Below, one piece after another: positions 42,661 through 48,016 of a DNA stretch of 64,000 bases. The DNA comes from Cafeteria roenbergensis (taxonomy: Eukaryota > Sar > Bigyra > Bicosoecida > Cafeteriaceae), in the NCBI GenBank assembly GCA_008330645.1, contig VLTN01000049.1, forward strand, positions 1 to 64,000, in the 5' to 3' direction. A program made the translations under genes and the position numbers. The stretch's first letter is position 1. Every line of letters begins with the position of its first letter. A model generated the notes under the pieces. That model saw only the letters and a list, made by a program, of their open reading frames with translations, ran no database searches and had not been told where the DNA came from.

Positions 42661-45600
42661 TCACGCGAGGAAGCGATCGGCATCGGCAGCGGGCGCGGCA
42701 GCGGCATCTGCGGGCTGGCTCTCTGGCTGGGTGGGGCCGCCGTCGTCGAAGAGGTCGTCCAGAACATCGTCAGCCGCCGCGTCGGCAGCGTCAAACCCTG
42801 CAGGGGACCCACCGCCGGCAGCGTCCGAAGCGGGTACTGCAGCCGTCGAAGCAGCAGCAGCAGCTGCAGCAGCAGCAGCCGACGACGACGACGACGACGA
42901 CGACGACGAAGGCGCAGACGGCGCAGCGGCGGCGCGAGAGGAGGAGGACCCGCCGTTCTCAGCCGGGCCAAACTCCCTGACCTGCGGCGCCTCGTCCTCA
43001 ACCGCTCCCTCCAGAGCCCGCACCGGGTGGTCGTGCGCGTACCGGGCCACGTTGACCTTCTTCTCAACGGCCTCCCGGCCGTAGACGCGGACCTTTCCGG
43101 ACACTGCCCGCTCCTTGAAGGCCATGTCGTGGACCCCTCCGATGGCCCATGCGCAGCCTGTGATGCCCGCTGCGTCTGCGCCGTCGAGCTGGTACTTGTC
43201 GTTGAGGGCGATGGCCGTCTCCAGGGCCTCCTCCGGCGACGGCGTCCACTCGAGCAGCTTCTTCGCCCAGTACTTGCGGCACCAGCCGTGCATGTAGCCG
43301 GTGTGCACCAGCTGCATCTGCGCGGCGTTCCAGAGGCGGTCGTGCGTCAGCCCGCGTTCGAGCACATCGGTGGCGTAGAGGAAGTCGCGGGCGTCGTCCG
43401 CGTGCGCCTGGAGGGATTCGCGCGCCCAGGCAGGGAAGCCGTCCACAGAGTCGTACTGCGGCCACGGGGCGCAAACGGGTCACAGATGCGGGGGGCAGGT
43501 CAGAGAGGGTGTCGAGGACGGGGGCGGGCGCTGCACAAGCAACGGGCTGGGGGAAACCGCTGCGCTGGAGCCGACCACCTGCGCCTGAGCGGAGCGCGTG
43601 CGCTGGTGCGCGAGGCGCTGATCCGGCGCACAGCGCCGCGCGCACGGGGCCAGCCGAGCGCTCTCGCTCGACGGGCTGCAGTGCAAGCGCCAATCACTCG
43701 TGCTGCCGGGCCGGGATGGCGCCTTGCGCCAGCCCAGAGGACCGCTGCAGCAACGCGCGGACTGCTCACCCTCTCCTCGAAGAAGCAGAAGTTGTCGCTG
43801 AGCTCCCTCCGTACAAGGATCTCCTCCGCCCAGGCCTGCATGCCATTGGCGGCCCGGGACACGAATACGTCCTTGATGGCCCCGCCAGCCACGCGCACCA
43901 GCTCCAGGCAGCAGCGCTGCGCGGAGAGGTGCCCGTACCGGATGTGGGCGCTGAGCATGGAGCGGACCTCGGGCTTGTTCGGGTCGTCCGCTTCGGTGTC
44001 ATACTTGTCCACCCGGCGCGCCGACTCGAGGAACGCAGCCAGGGCGGCCTCGGCGGCGCGCTCGCCCGGCTGGGCCCAGGTCACTTCCGGCAGGGCCCAG
44101 TTGATCTTGAGGAAGGCAGCGACGGCGCCCCAGTCAGTCAGGCCGGTCGCGGCGTTGATGGGTGCCGGGCCAGCGATCAAGGGCCCCTCGCTGGGGCCTG
44201 CGGAGGGCCCCGCCCCGTCGGCGGCCGCTGCCGCCGCAGCGTCCTCGCGCACCCCGCCGACCACGGCGGCGTCGTTGAAGGGAAAGGGGGAATGGCTGAG
44301 CACGGCCGGGAACACGGTGAGGAAATGGTGAATGCGGGCGTGGAGCTTGGGCCGGAACGTGCGGGTGGCTGCGAAGGGTGATTGGGCGTGGACGGGGGGA
44401 GGCCGGGGCGGGGCGTGTCAACGCAGGCTGCGGAGCTGCAGGCCGCTCCACGGCGGGGGGGGCGCGCGATAGCGGGCTTTGCTGGCGACGCCGGACTGGC
44501 CCTGAAGCAGGCAGGCGAGCGGGCAGGGGGGCAGGGGGGCAGGGGGGCAGGCGGGCAGGCTCACAAACTTCGGGCTTGTCCGATGCGAGCCAACAGGGGA
44601 CGACGTTGTGTGCGTCCACGTACTCAAGGCCGCAGCCGTCGTGGAGGCGGCGCTCCGCGTCGTCGCGCCACGCCTGGGCCTGCCTGAGCGGGGAGAAGTC
44701 CGTGACCACGTGGCGGGCCTCCACCGCCGCGGCGTATCGCGCGAGCTCCTCAGCCGGGTTGGAGCCCACGAGAAGGCGGAAGCCGATGCCCAGCGTGCTG
44801 AGGTCAGCCTCGAGGAATCGCAGGCCGCGCAGCTGGAAGCCGGCCTGGCGGGCGGACGCGCCGCCAAAGTCCTGGGACACGGTGAAGACGACTACCAGGG
44901 GGGCCTTGTGCTTGTAGGCCTGGCGCTGCGCGGAAACGAGCGCCCAGTTGTCGCGAATGCGCTGGTCTGCGAGCGGGGCAGAGGCGGCCGCGGGGAGCGA
45001 GGGAGGCACGCACGCGCGTTGTGCAAGGGAACGGCGCCGTGGCCGTGGCGAGCCGTCGCCCGCGCGGGCAGCCAGCACCGTCGCAGCTCCTGGTCTCACC
45101 CCGGCTCATCCAGTAGATAACAGGGCCCGAGTTGGCGCCCTCGACCGACTTGCGCATGCGCGTGCGGCGGCTGCCGTCGAACTTGGCGGCGTTGTCGTAC
45201 TCGAACGACGTGACTGCCACAACGCAGGGCAGCCGCGGCGGGGGCGCCGAGAGGTGCTTGATGAGCCGATCGCGCGTGCTCAGGTTGCCGTCGGACTCGG
45301 CGTTCGGAAGCGCCTGCAGGATCGTCCGCGTGCGCAAACGAGCGTTCACAGCACCCACCCGCTCCTTGAGCTGGGCCGCGAGCTTGGCGCGGGCCTGCGC
45401 CGCAGCGCGCCGAACGGTCGCCTCGCCGTGCGCATCCACGAGCCTCGTGAGCACCACGCCGGCCTTGGTCTCGCGCATCGCCGACACGGTGACGGAGACT
45501 TCGCCCATGCTCTCCAAGACTGCCACCATCCGTGCATCGTCCCCCCCTGCGCGTCCGGAGCGGACCAGGTTGCGAGCAGAAAGGGCCAAGTCGGGCAAGG

Positions 45601-45726
45601 AAGCGCGCGCGGCGCCGTCGAGCATTGCTGCACGGCTCGGGCACGTGGCTCACGACCAAATGCGGTGCGCAAGTGGGCAAGGTGCAGCTTGAGCTTTCGC
45701 AGGGCCTCCGAGCCGTGCCCGTCCAT
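42661..45726 (-). CDS. TFIIS N-domain fused to class II CPD photolyase
   Basis: Five exons, complement: 45654-45726, 45100-45546, 44565-44966, 43770-44368, 42661-43455 (771 aa). All junctions are GTGAG...GCAG and keep frame. Residues 1-90 match the TFIIS N-terminal LW-type helical bundle (ALRKLKLHLAHL, then VSVTVSAMRETKAGVVL and a helix AKLAAQLKE). The same exon then continues into the class II photolyase start GPVIYWMSR, which joins DQRIRDNWAL, VTDFSPLR and DAHNVVPCWLASDK (antenna and Rossmann part), and then YGHLSAQRCCLELVR, EILVRRELSDNFCFF, YDSVDGFPAWA and GYMHGWCRKYWAKKLLEW (FAD part), ending in the ERAVSGKVRVYG motif. The enzyme splits cyclobutane pyrimidine dimers with blue light. An Ala/Ser/Asp-rich tail follows. 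The start is the first in-frame ATG, but coding-like sequence continues upstream. Confidence 0.88.
44521..44556 (+). repeat. G6CA tandem run in photolyase intron 3
   Basis: Repeats of GGGGGGCA (about four units) next to the splice donor of intron 3. The plus strand could form a G-quadruplex; the transcript (minus strand) carries the C-rich complement directly after GTGAGC. Confidence 0.7.
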
Positions 45727-45979: not shown

Positions 45980-47551
45980 TCACTCGCTACGACCGCCTCG
46001 CGCACCGCCGCCACGCCCGCGGAACCCGCCGCGCCCCCGGCCGCCCCCACCGCGCCCGCGGCTGAACCCGCCCCCACCGCGCCCGCGGCTGAACCCGCCA
46101 CGCCCGCGCCCGCGGCTGAACCCGCCGCGGCCCCCGCCACGGCTGAACCCGCCATCCTCTCCGCCCCCCCGAGAGCCGCCGCCCTCCTCTCCGTCGCGGC
46201 CTCCGGAAAAGCCGCCACGCCCGCGCCCGCGCCCGCGCCCGCGTCCGCGTCCGCGCCCGTGGCCGGGAGCCTGCGCGGCCTTGCGCTTGGGCGGGCGGGA
46301 GCCATCGGCCATCCACACGCTGGAGGCGTCGAAGCCGCGCGTGCGAAGCTCGCGGCCGTCCAGCTCCATCTTGGCCTCCTTCAGCTTGTCGGCCGCGGCA
46401 GCGCTGTCCATCTCCACGTACGCGAAACCGACAACGGCGCCCTTGCGGTTGCGCTGCAGGTGGAGGTCCACGATCTCGCCGCAGGCGGCGCCCTCCACCG
46501 CGCGACGCACCGCCGCCTCGTCAACGGTGTCGAGTGGGAGGTTCCCCACGTACACAGTGGCAGCCGCGTTGGAGGGGTTGAACGCCAGGCCGGGGCGGAG
46601 GATGGCCGGCTCGCCCTCCTGGGGGACGGGCTGGCGGGGAGCTGGCTTGGAGGCCTCGGCCTCGGCCTCGCGGCGCGGGCGCTGCGCCTTGGGCGGGGCC
46701 GTCTCCTCCTCCTCGTCCTCAGACTCCTCCTCGTCCTCCTCGTCGTCGTCTTCGCTCTCACTGGCATCATCGCTGTCGTCACCGGCCAGACTGTCCTCCT
46801 CCTCCTCCTCCTCCTCGTCCTCCTCGTCATCGTCGCCCTCGTCCTCCTCGTCGTCACCCGCGGGCTCTGCCTCCTCGCGGCCGCGCTTGCGAGCGCGGGC
46901 GGACTCAAGCTCCGCCTTGGACACGCCCCATGCCTCCTCGGCCTCCTCGATGAGCGCGGACGCCTCGTTTGCGCCTCCTGCGCCGAACGCGGACTCGACG
47001 GCGGCGGCCTCGGCATCGCCAGCGGGCTTGGCGGTCAGGCCTTGGGGGCGCTCGCGCTGCCGCTTGGCGGGCTCGGCCTTGGCGGCTGCCTTCTCGCGCT
47101 TGGCTGCCTTCTTGGCCTTGGCCTTGGCCTTGGCCGCAGCCACGCGCTCGGCCGCCTCGTCGCTCCCCTCGTCAGAGTCGTCGTCGGAGCCGGCGTACTG
47201 CGCCATCCAGTCGTCGTTCTCGTCGATGCGCTTGTGCATCTCGATCATGGACACCAACAGCGACCTGCCGGCGCCCAGGTTGTCGACATCCTCCACCTCG
47301 TCGTCGTCCTTCTCGTTGTCGCTCGCGCCGCTGTCAGCGGCAGCTTCCCCGGCGCTAGGGGCGACGACCTCGGCCGCAGCCACGGGCTTTGCGTCCCCAA
47401 TGACCGCACCGGAGCCTGCCTTGCTGAGCATATCGACAAGACTGAAGCCTTCCGCGGCGCTGTCCGCCCCGGGCTGGGCGGCGGCGGCTGCCGGCGCGCC
47501 GGCCGCGGCCTTTGCCTTGTCCCCGGACTTGCTGCTGGAACGCTTCGGCAT
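45980..47551 (-). CDS. Nucleolin-like RRM/RGG RNA-binding protein
   Basis: 523 aa, one exon, ATG 47551. N terminus Lys/Ser-rich; about residues 85-310 are mixed acidic runs (poly-Glu/Asp) and basic Lys/Arg patches, as in nucleolar proteins. One RRM at about 328-405: RNP2 VYVGNL and RNP1 KGAVVGFAYVEM. The C terminus (about 430-523) is an RGG domain with many GRGRG, GGFSRG and RGGFRGRG units. This order (acidic, RRM, RGG) is that of nucleolin/fibrillarin partners and of Nop12-like factors, so a role in rRNA maturation is likely. Only one RRM is seen where nucleolin has two to four. The photolyase gene lies directly downstream on the same strand, 253 bases from its stop. Confidence 0.82.
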   Translation of the reverse strand: MPKRSSSKSGDKAKAAAGAPAAAAAQPGADSAAEGFSLVDMLSKAGSGAVIGDAKPVAAAEVVAPSAGEAAADSGASDNEKDDDEVEDVDNLGAGRSLLVSMIEMHKRIDENDDWMAQYAGSDDDSDEGSDEAAERVAAAKAKAKAKKAAKREKAAAKAEPAKRQRERPQGLTAKPAGDAEAAAVESAFGAGGANEASALIEEAEEAWGVSKAELESARARKRGREEAEPAGDDEEDEGDDDEEDEEEEEEEDSLAGDDSDDASESEDDDEEDEEESEDEEEETAPPKAQRPRREAEAEASKPAPRQPVPQEGEPAILRPGLAFNPSNAAATVYVGNLPLDTVDEAAVRRAVEGAACGEIVDLHLQRNRKGAVVGFAYVEMDSAAAADKLKEAKMELDGRELRTRGFDASSVWMADGSRPPKRKAAQAPGHGRGRGRGRGRGRGRGGFSGGRDGEEGGGSRGGGEDGGFSRGGGRGGFSRGRGRGGFSRGRGGGGFSRGRGGGGRGRGGFRGRGGGARGGRSE

Positions 47552-48016
47552 TGCTTCCGCTGCTGTGCGCCACCTCCCGGGCACGTGCGGTTGCAACCCA
47601 GCGGTTCGGGTGCGAAGTGCCCGGCGCCGGGGCGACGGCATGGCGCCCACACTCCCCGCGAGGGCTGCGCACTTTGGGCAGAGCCGCAAGGCGAGCCTTG
47701 GCGCGGATGCTTGCGCGGCCAAGCAATTCGCGATTCGGCGCCCTCCTTGCGTAAACCGACGGCAACAGGGCGTTCCTTCGGTGCTGTGGCCGAGATCACG
47801 CACGCGGCGGTGGTCTCTGGGAAATGCGGGGCAGCCCCGAGCAGGCTCTGGCGGTGGCGAAGGGGAGCGGGCAGGGGAACGCCACCTTCAACCGCTGCAG
47901 AGCGCAAACTGTCGTGGCCACCGGAAAACTTGCAGATTTCTCCACGGCCCGGCGCCCCAGGCACGCTTGCGGCTGCGCCAGCCCGCGCCTCGTGCCCAGG
48001 CAGGCTAGTTGCGTCG
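47552..48016. promoter_or_regulatory. Shared promoter region, RRM protein / PH protein
   Basis: 465 bases between divergent starts. Contains both 5' UTRs; no core element or RNA gene seen. Confidence 0.45.

Follow-up and report, generated by a model that had tools for sequence, protein, structure and literature searches.

A gene on the minus strand of the first 64,000 nucleotides of Cafeteria roenbergensis contig VLTN01000049.1 (the whole stretch, called the window hereafter) is best explained as a class II photolyase paralogue that gained an N-terminal TFIIS N-domain (TND), by which light-driven repair would be tethered to transcribed chromatin. This composite reading is tentative, with a probability that we put at roughly 0.4, and its parts differ in strength: residues ~150-650 are, by profile and structure matches, a class II photolyase, residues ~5-90 are probably a TND, and the tethering of light repair to transcription is a good hypothesis whose chief rival is an altered substrate or lost repair. 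If it is true, the fusion of a photolyase with a transcription-docking module would be an evolved answer to the hiding of lesions by stalled RNA polymerase II (Pol II); even with repair lost, a TND-flavoprotein would represent a novel way for light to act on transcription elongation. Neither a paper linking 'photolyase' with 'TFIIS N-terminal domain' nor one on a class II photolyase fusion with an N-terminal extension was found in a literature search (most subscription papers and all preprints lay outside its scope); the fusion, known from one genome only, may already be annotated in eukaryote protein databases.

Gene structure and the start of the protein

The span 42661-45726 proposed for the gene in the first-pass annotation is borne out, together with its exon structure. 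On the minus strand, the reading frame begins with the ATG at 45726 and ends with the stop at 42661, and five exons, separated by four GT-AG introns of 107, 133, 196 and 314 bases, join into a coding sequence of 2316 bases including the stop, hence 771 residues:

45654..45726, minus strand: exon 1, residues 1-24, with the ATG and putative helix 1 of the bundle (GT donor, codon log-odds)
45547..45653, minus strand: intron 1, GT-AG, phase 1, separating putative helix 1 from helix 2
45100..45546, minus strand: exon 2, residues 25-173 (AG acceptor, GT donor, PF08711 at 14.6 bits, codon log-odds)
44565..44966, minus strand: exon 3, bulk of the PF00875 photolyase domain (splice sites, Pfam, PDB match)
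43770..44368, minus strand: exon 4, photolyase part with R256A, N257D and H272R (M. mazei numbering)
42661..43455, minus strand: exon 5, photolyase part with M379K and the Trp triad, followed by the low-complexity Ser/Ala tail and the stop

Exon 2 carries putative helices 2-4 of the bundle (to ~residue 92), a linker (~93-149) and the first photolyase motif, GPVIYWMSR. The junction had been described as lying within this single exon and hence as independent of splicing, which is true of the linker, the beginning of the photolyase and the greater part of the bundle; the putative first helix, however, falls in exon 1, so that the bundle as a whole depends on one splice. Nor does the bundle lead straight into the photolyase, as had also been stated, because ~57 residues (93-149) intervene; a piece covering them was without a Pfam match at E <= 1.

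Where, then, does the protein begin? In codon log-odds trained on the photolyase exons of the same gene and on the upstream gene, exon 1 scores +0.31 in the called frame and -0.77 and -0.57 in the other two, and the bundle part and linker of exon 2 score +0.26 and +0.32 in the called frame, respectively, both other frames being negative; just upstream of the ATG at 45726 the value is about zero. The coding bias in the called frame and its disappearance upstream make 45726 the likely true start of a gene that is itself real, and a 5' extension beyond this ATG was rejected on the same upstream value. A transcript starting within exon 2, or at an upstream start in another frame, where ATGs are indeed present, would instead yield a plain class II photolyase devoid of the bundle. 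We regard this as very unlikely, since the coding bias of exon 1 and of the bundle region in exon 2 is confined to the joined frame and the splice joins the two exons in frame.

The N-terminal bundle as a probable TND

The identification of the bundle as a TFIIS N-domain met with a divided outcome when it was compared with the TFIIS_I profile and its relatives: PF08711 stays below threshold and the LW motif has Leu at its Trp position, whereas tests built specifically on TNDs favour the assignment. Against PF08711, residues 1-94 score 13.7 bits (E 0.058) and residues 27-88 score 14.6 bits (E 0.029), under the curated cut-off of 20.6 bits, and the family goes unlisted when the whole protein, or the piece extended upstream in frame, is scanned. 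PF14850, an unrelated helical family, scores nearly as well (E 0.085), and 40 shuffles of residues 27-88, none of which matches PF08711, list 11 other families with a best E of 0.0012; as shuffles score equally well against other families, the agnostic Pfam search is not significant. A PDB search with the window N-domain returned four chains at E <= 10, none of them a TND. The low score, the near-equal family, the shuffles and the PDB search favour the view that the protein is a diverged photolyase with a disordered tail, to which a helical bundle not related to TNDs was added at the N-terminus.

Domain scans may nevertheless miss TNDs in the Cafeteria lineage. The organism's own TFIIS gene, recognised by its PF07500 domain (C1, L089), has an N-domain that, hand-joined from three exons, reaches 16.4 bits against PF08711 and is likewise sub-threshold, and alignments read by eye place Leu at the LW Trp in this domain as in the window domain; the organism's own IWS1 passes the cut-off at 22.1 bits. 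Searched against the whole own genome (an assembly of 36,303,456 bases in 167 contigs), PF08711 gave no match at E <= 0.001 and at E <= 10 returned only IWS1, the window domain and TFIIS both being absent, and the own TFIIS N-domain, used as a query, retrieved no chain from the PDB.

For the more specific tests, TND HMMs were run over the window domain, 20,000 shuffles and 6,335 ORF segments. The six-TND HMM (all6) and the seven-TND HMM (all7) give the window domain 13.3 and 12.1 bits, scores reached by no shuffle and in each case by 6 segments, all own IWS1/TFIIS loci for all6 and own loci for all7 (models that include own sequences match the own loci by construction). With four outside TNDs (noOwn) the score is 9.5 bits, equalled by 3 shuffles and 2 segments, both own IWS1. 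Five outside TNDs (ext5) yield 9.2 bits for the window domain and 10.5 for the own TFIIS, with 2 shuffles and 2 segments (own IWS1) reaching the former, and a TFIIS+MED26 HMM yields 11.2 and 3.4 bits, respectively, with neither a shuffle nor a segment reaching the window domain's value. Judged by these scores of the own TFIIS, the window domain looks about as TND-like as the lineage's true TFIIS, which argues against an unrelated extension, as do the 0 to 3 of 20,000 shuffles counted with five of the six HMMs. The TFIIS-only HMM points the other way, its 9.4 bits for the window domain being reached by 20/20,000 shuffles as well as by 11/6,335 segments (10 from L089/L094, overlapping loci of the own TFIIS, which is itself part of this model, and an unrelated one on the plus strand of the window). 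One 'decoy' segment (minus frame 0, index 6117, from 45649) corresponds to the reading frame of exon 2 and stayed below the score throughout.

Pairwise comparison singles out MED26 and yeast TFIIS, for which just 1 and 3 of 2,000 shuffles, respectively, are as good as the window domain, and with both of which its core motif is in register; the matches to Spn1 (81 shuffles of 2,000), TCEA1 (279), own IWS1 (356), own TFIIS (1,459) and human IWS1 (1,766) are weak or ordinary. The agreement in register again opposes an unrelated extension, whereas hhalign against the seven-TND alignment can be read both ways, its P of 0.00025 favouring a TND and its probability of 43% such an extension. With the TND-specific tests for it and the Pfam cut-off and shuffle results against it, a TND is probable, and an unrelated helical extension appears unlikely, if by no means negligible. 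Relative to TFIIS N-terminal/LW domains, for which yeast TFIIS (1eo0), TCEA1 (6zuy), MED26 (5odd), IWS1 (6zv1) and PNUTS/PPP1R10 (6vti) served as references, the window domain agrees in core-motif length and register and departs in its sub-threshold Pfam score, its Leu at the LW Trp position and its attachment to a photolyase, not to a transcription factor.

That the window domain was copied recently from the own TFIIS was considered and rejected: BLAST of it against the TFIIS N-domain gave no alignment, and the own TFIIS intron found (by eye) at a place similar to that of intron 1 is in phase 0, not phase 1. Residues 28-154, searched against the own genome, retrieved nothing beyond their own gene other than two weak places (E 2.8 and 3.3).

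Photolyase chemistry and the lesion pocket

That the remainder of the protein belongs to the class II photolyases, as the first-pass annotation held, is confirmed by TIGR00591 (phr2; 470 bits, E 9.8e-141, in two stretches, short of the NCBI cut-off of 550), by PF00875 and by solved class II structures, which match at E about 1e-106, among them 8oet (E 8.6e-107). The class II CPD photolyases 8oet, 2xry and 3umv, from Methanosarcina mazei and rice, share with the window protein the full domain order, the Trp triad and the YWMSRDQR start; the window protein differs in adding ~150 N-terminal residues with the TFIIS-N-like bundle, in a ~120-residue low-complexity acidic tail and in three altered lesion contacts.

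Conservation was assessed over the 80 best of 143 GTDB relatives, which are prokaryotic class II proteins; in their alignment, 132 columns are conserved to 93% or more. The window photolyase keeps 110 of the 132, among them W549, W570 and W577 (the triad), W610, E490, R313, R630 and D617 in its own numbering. Translated into M. mazei numbering through the 8oet alignment, with a 20-residue offset worked out by hand, the triad W381-W360-W388 is intact as W570, W549 and W577; in class II enzymes it serves flavin photoreduction, according to PMC5885780. Seven CPD contacts, W421, W305, M379, N257, E301, R164 and R256, are named in PMC6126647. W421, E301 and R164 are kept, as is the Asp428-Arg441 pair, and the W305 position holds Arg, as it does in 93% or more of the 80 relatives. 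Three of the seven are altered (R256A, N257D and M379K) at positions where the usual residue occurs in 96%, 97% and 100% of the 80 relatives, respectively; the motif DGRDPNG reads DGADAAG, and in H272R an Arg replaces a His that is 100% conserved in the same set. Loss of the bubble plug (R429 to Met, W431 to Phe) was rejected as evidence, because, according to PMC6126647, the class II family tolerates both Met at R429 and Phe at W431. With the Trp chain kept and three CPD contacts changed, the electron-transfer chemistry appears preserved while lesion binding appears changed.

A TND-less paralogue and prokaryotic relatives

The own genome contains two more class II-like genes, one on contig C2 (C2:846897-848432; 45% identical over the best matched stretch) and one on C31 (37% over part). 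The C2 paralogue keeps R256, N257, M379 and DGRDPNG and agrees at 114/132 conserved columns, 4 of its 18 misses being gaps, as the compared piece starts late. Unlike the window gene, it has a first exon encoding a short basic N-terminus (read by eye), and no TND likeness was found near it in the HMM scan. In a FastTree of 83 sequences, with C31 included as a fragment, the window photolyase pairs with C2 (support 0.77), and the terminal branches measure 1.12 for the window photolyase, 0.82 for C2 and 2.47 for C31, which lies far off. The window gene may be the class II paralogue that gained a TND, C2 being a counterpart without one.

Could the TND be real and CPD repair nonetheless have been lost, leaving a cryptochrome-like light sensor, a structural component of transcription or a photolyase for another lesion? 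The changes at Arg256, Asn257 and Met379, strongly conserved positions that PMC6126647 names as CPD contacts, the altered DGRDPNG motif and a branch longer than that of C2, which retains the three residues, all point in this direction, whereas retention of Trp421, Glu301, Arg164, the Asp428-Arg441 pair and the Trp triad, as well as the tolerance of Met at 429 and Phe at 431 in class II enzymes, argues against it. We consider such a loss improbable, albeit a serious contender.

Beyond Cafeteria, 143 of 188 candidate GTDB stretches encode a relative, and all of the best 80, which were kept, contain a class II ORF. In 77/80 loci, the photolyase core match is preceded by at most 59 open residues, in L061, L082 and L084 by more (103, 104 and 172, respectively), and no 94-residue ORF segment in the GTDB loci reaches the window domain's score with the six TND HMMs. 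One locus aligned from query residue 63 (L036) was dropped, just 24 open residues preceding its match. In IMG/VR, one stretch matched the peptide pattern and encoded no relative, in a search that finds close relatives only. The same fusion, for which relatives had been thought worth searching, was not found in the best 80 of 143 GTDB loci or in the search of IMG/VR for close relatives.

How light-driven repair might be tethered to transcription

The first-pass annotation went on to read the fusion as light-driven repair recruited to stalled transcription. A TND-class II photolyase fusion remains the interpretation that suits the sequence best. It fits a documented gap in yeast, where, according to PMC12153352, photolyase is efficient on the non-transcribed strand and inhibited on the transcribed one, stalled Pol II being the likely cause, and where UV mutations in excision-deficient cells are enriched on the transcribed strand. 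Weighing against the stall reading are the changes at three of seven CPD contacts, the sub-threshold TND and the failure of the IWS1 HEAT/TND, by itself, to stay on the elongation complex (PMC13175633). The same source and PMC12278311 describe TNDs as docking on short motifs in disordered parts of factors such as IWS1, SPT6 and PAF1.

Under the tethering hypothesis, the TND would dock on short motifs within the disordered regions of elongation factors of the IWS1, SPT6 and PAF1 type and would keep the flavoenzyme near transcribed chromatin, raising its local concentration; blue light would excite the reduced FAD, an electron would be donated to the UV lesion, and the benefit would fall on the transcribed strand, where stalled Pol II hinders free photolyase. 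We infer for this scheme the TND fold, a binding partner, a nuclear location, DNA repair and a strand preference, and it is in this inferred setting that light-driven repair would act at stalled transcription. Some of the presumed partners exist, as the own genome encodes TFIIS (C1) and IWS1 (C16; PF08711 and PDB IWS1 matches) and has probable Elf1/ELOF1 pieces on C31, below cut-off. A tether alone would leave a lesion under Pol II hidden. It is conceivable, though rather doubtful, that the TND passes the photolyase to the Pol II elongation complex and that the pocket (R256A, N257D, M379K) has been re-tuned for transcription-opened DNA or stalled complexes, not closed duplex. The proposed role, repair at transcribed DNA, would be shared with transcription-coupled nucleotide excision repair (CSB, UVSSA, TFIIS, ELOF1); in contrast to that pathway, the window enzyme would be one fused photoreversal enzyme, without excision.

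Other features of the window and genome

In the photolyase tail (42790-42960, minus strand), Ser/Ala runs from simple codon repeats are followed by an acidic DDVLDDLFDD patch, which could itself be a docking motif. A PF00875 search of the own genome found places on five contigs (C53, C49, which carries the window, C20, C2 and C31), of which C53:46782-47300 and C20:465295-466146 are further places of the photolyase/cryptochrome family, and the C31 gene (L006/L096, C31:262217-262819) is a highly diverged third class II-like photolyase with a very long branch. Taken in 2-kb steps, the GC content of the window varies between 66 and 76%. The upstream neighbour of the photolyase gene (45980-47884, minus strand) encodes a protein that is acidic, rich in RGG and nucleolin-like by eye, with a single RRM (PF00076, 22.7 bits), and ends ~250 bases before the photolyase start codon.
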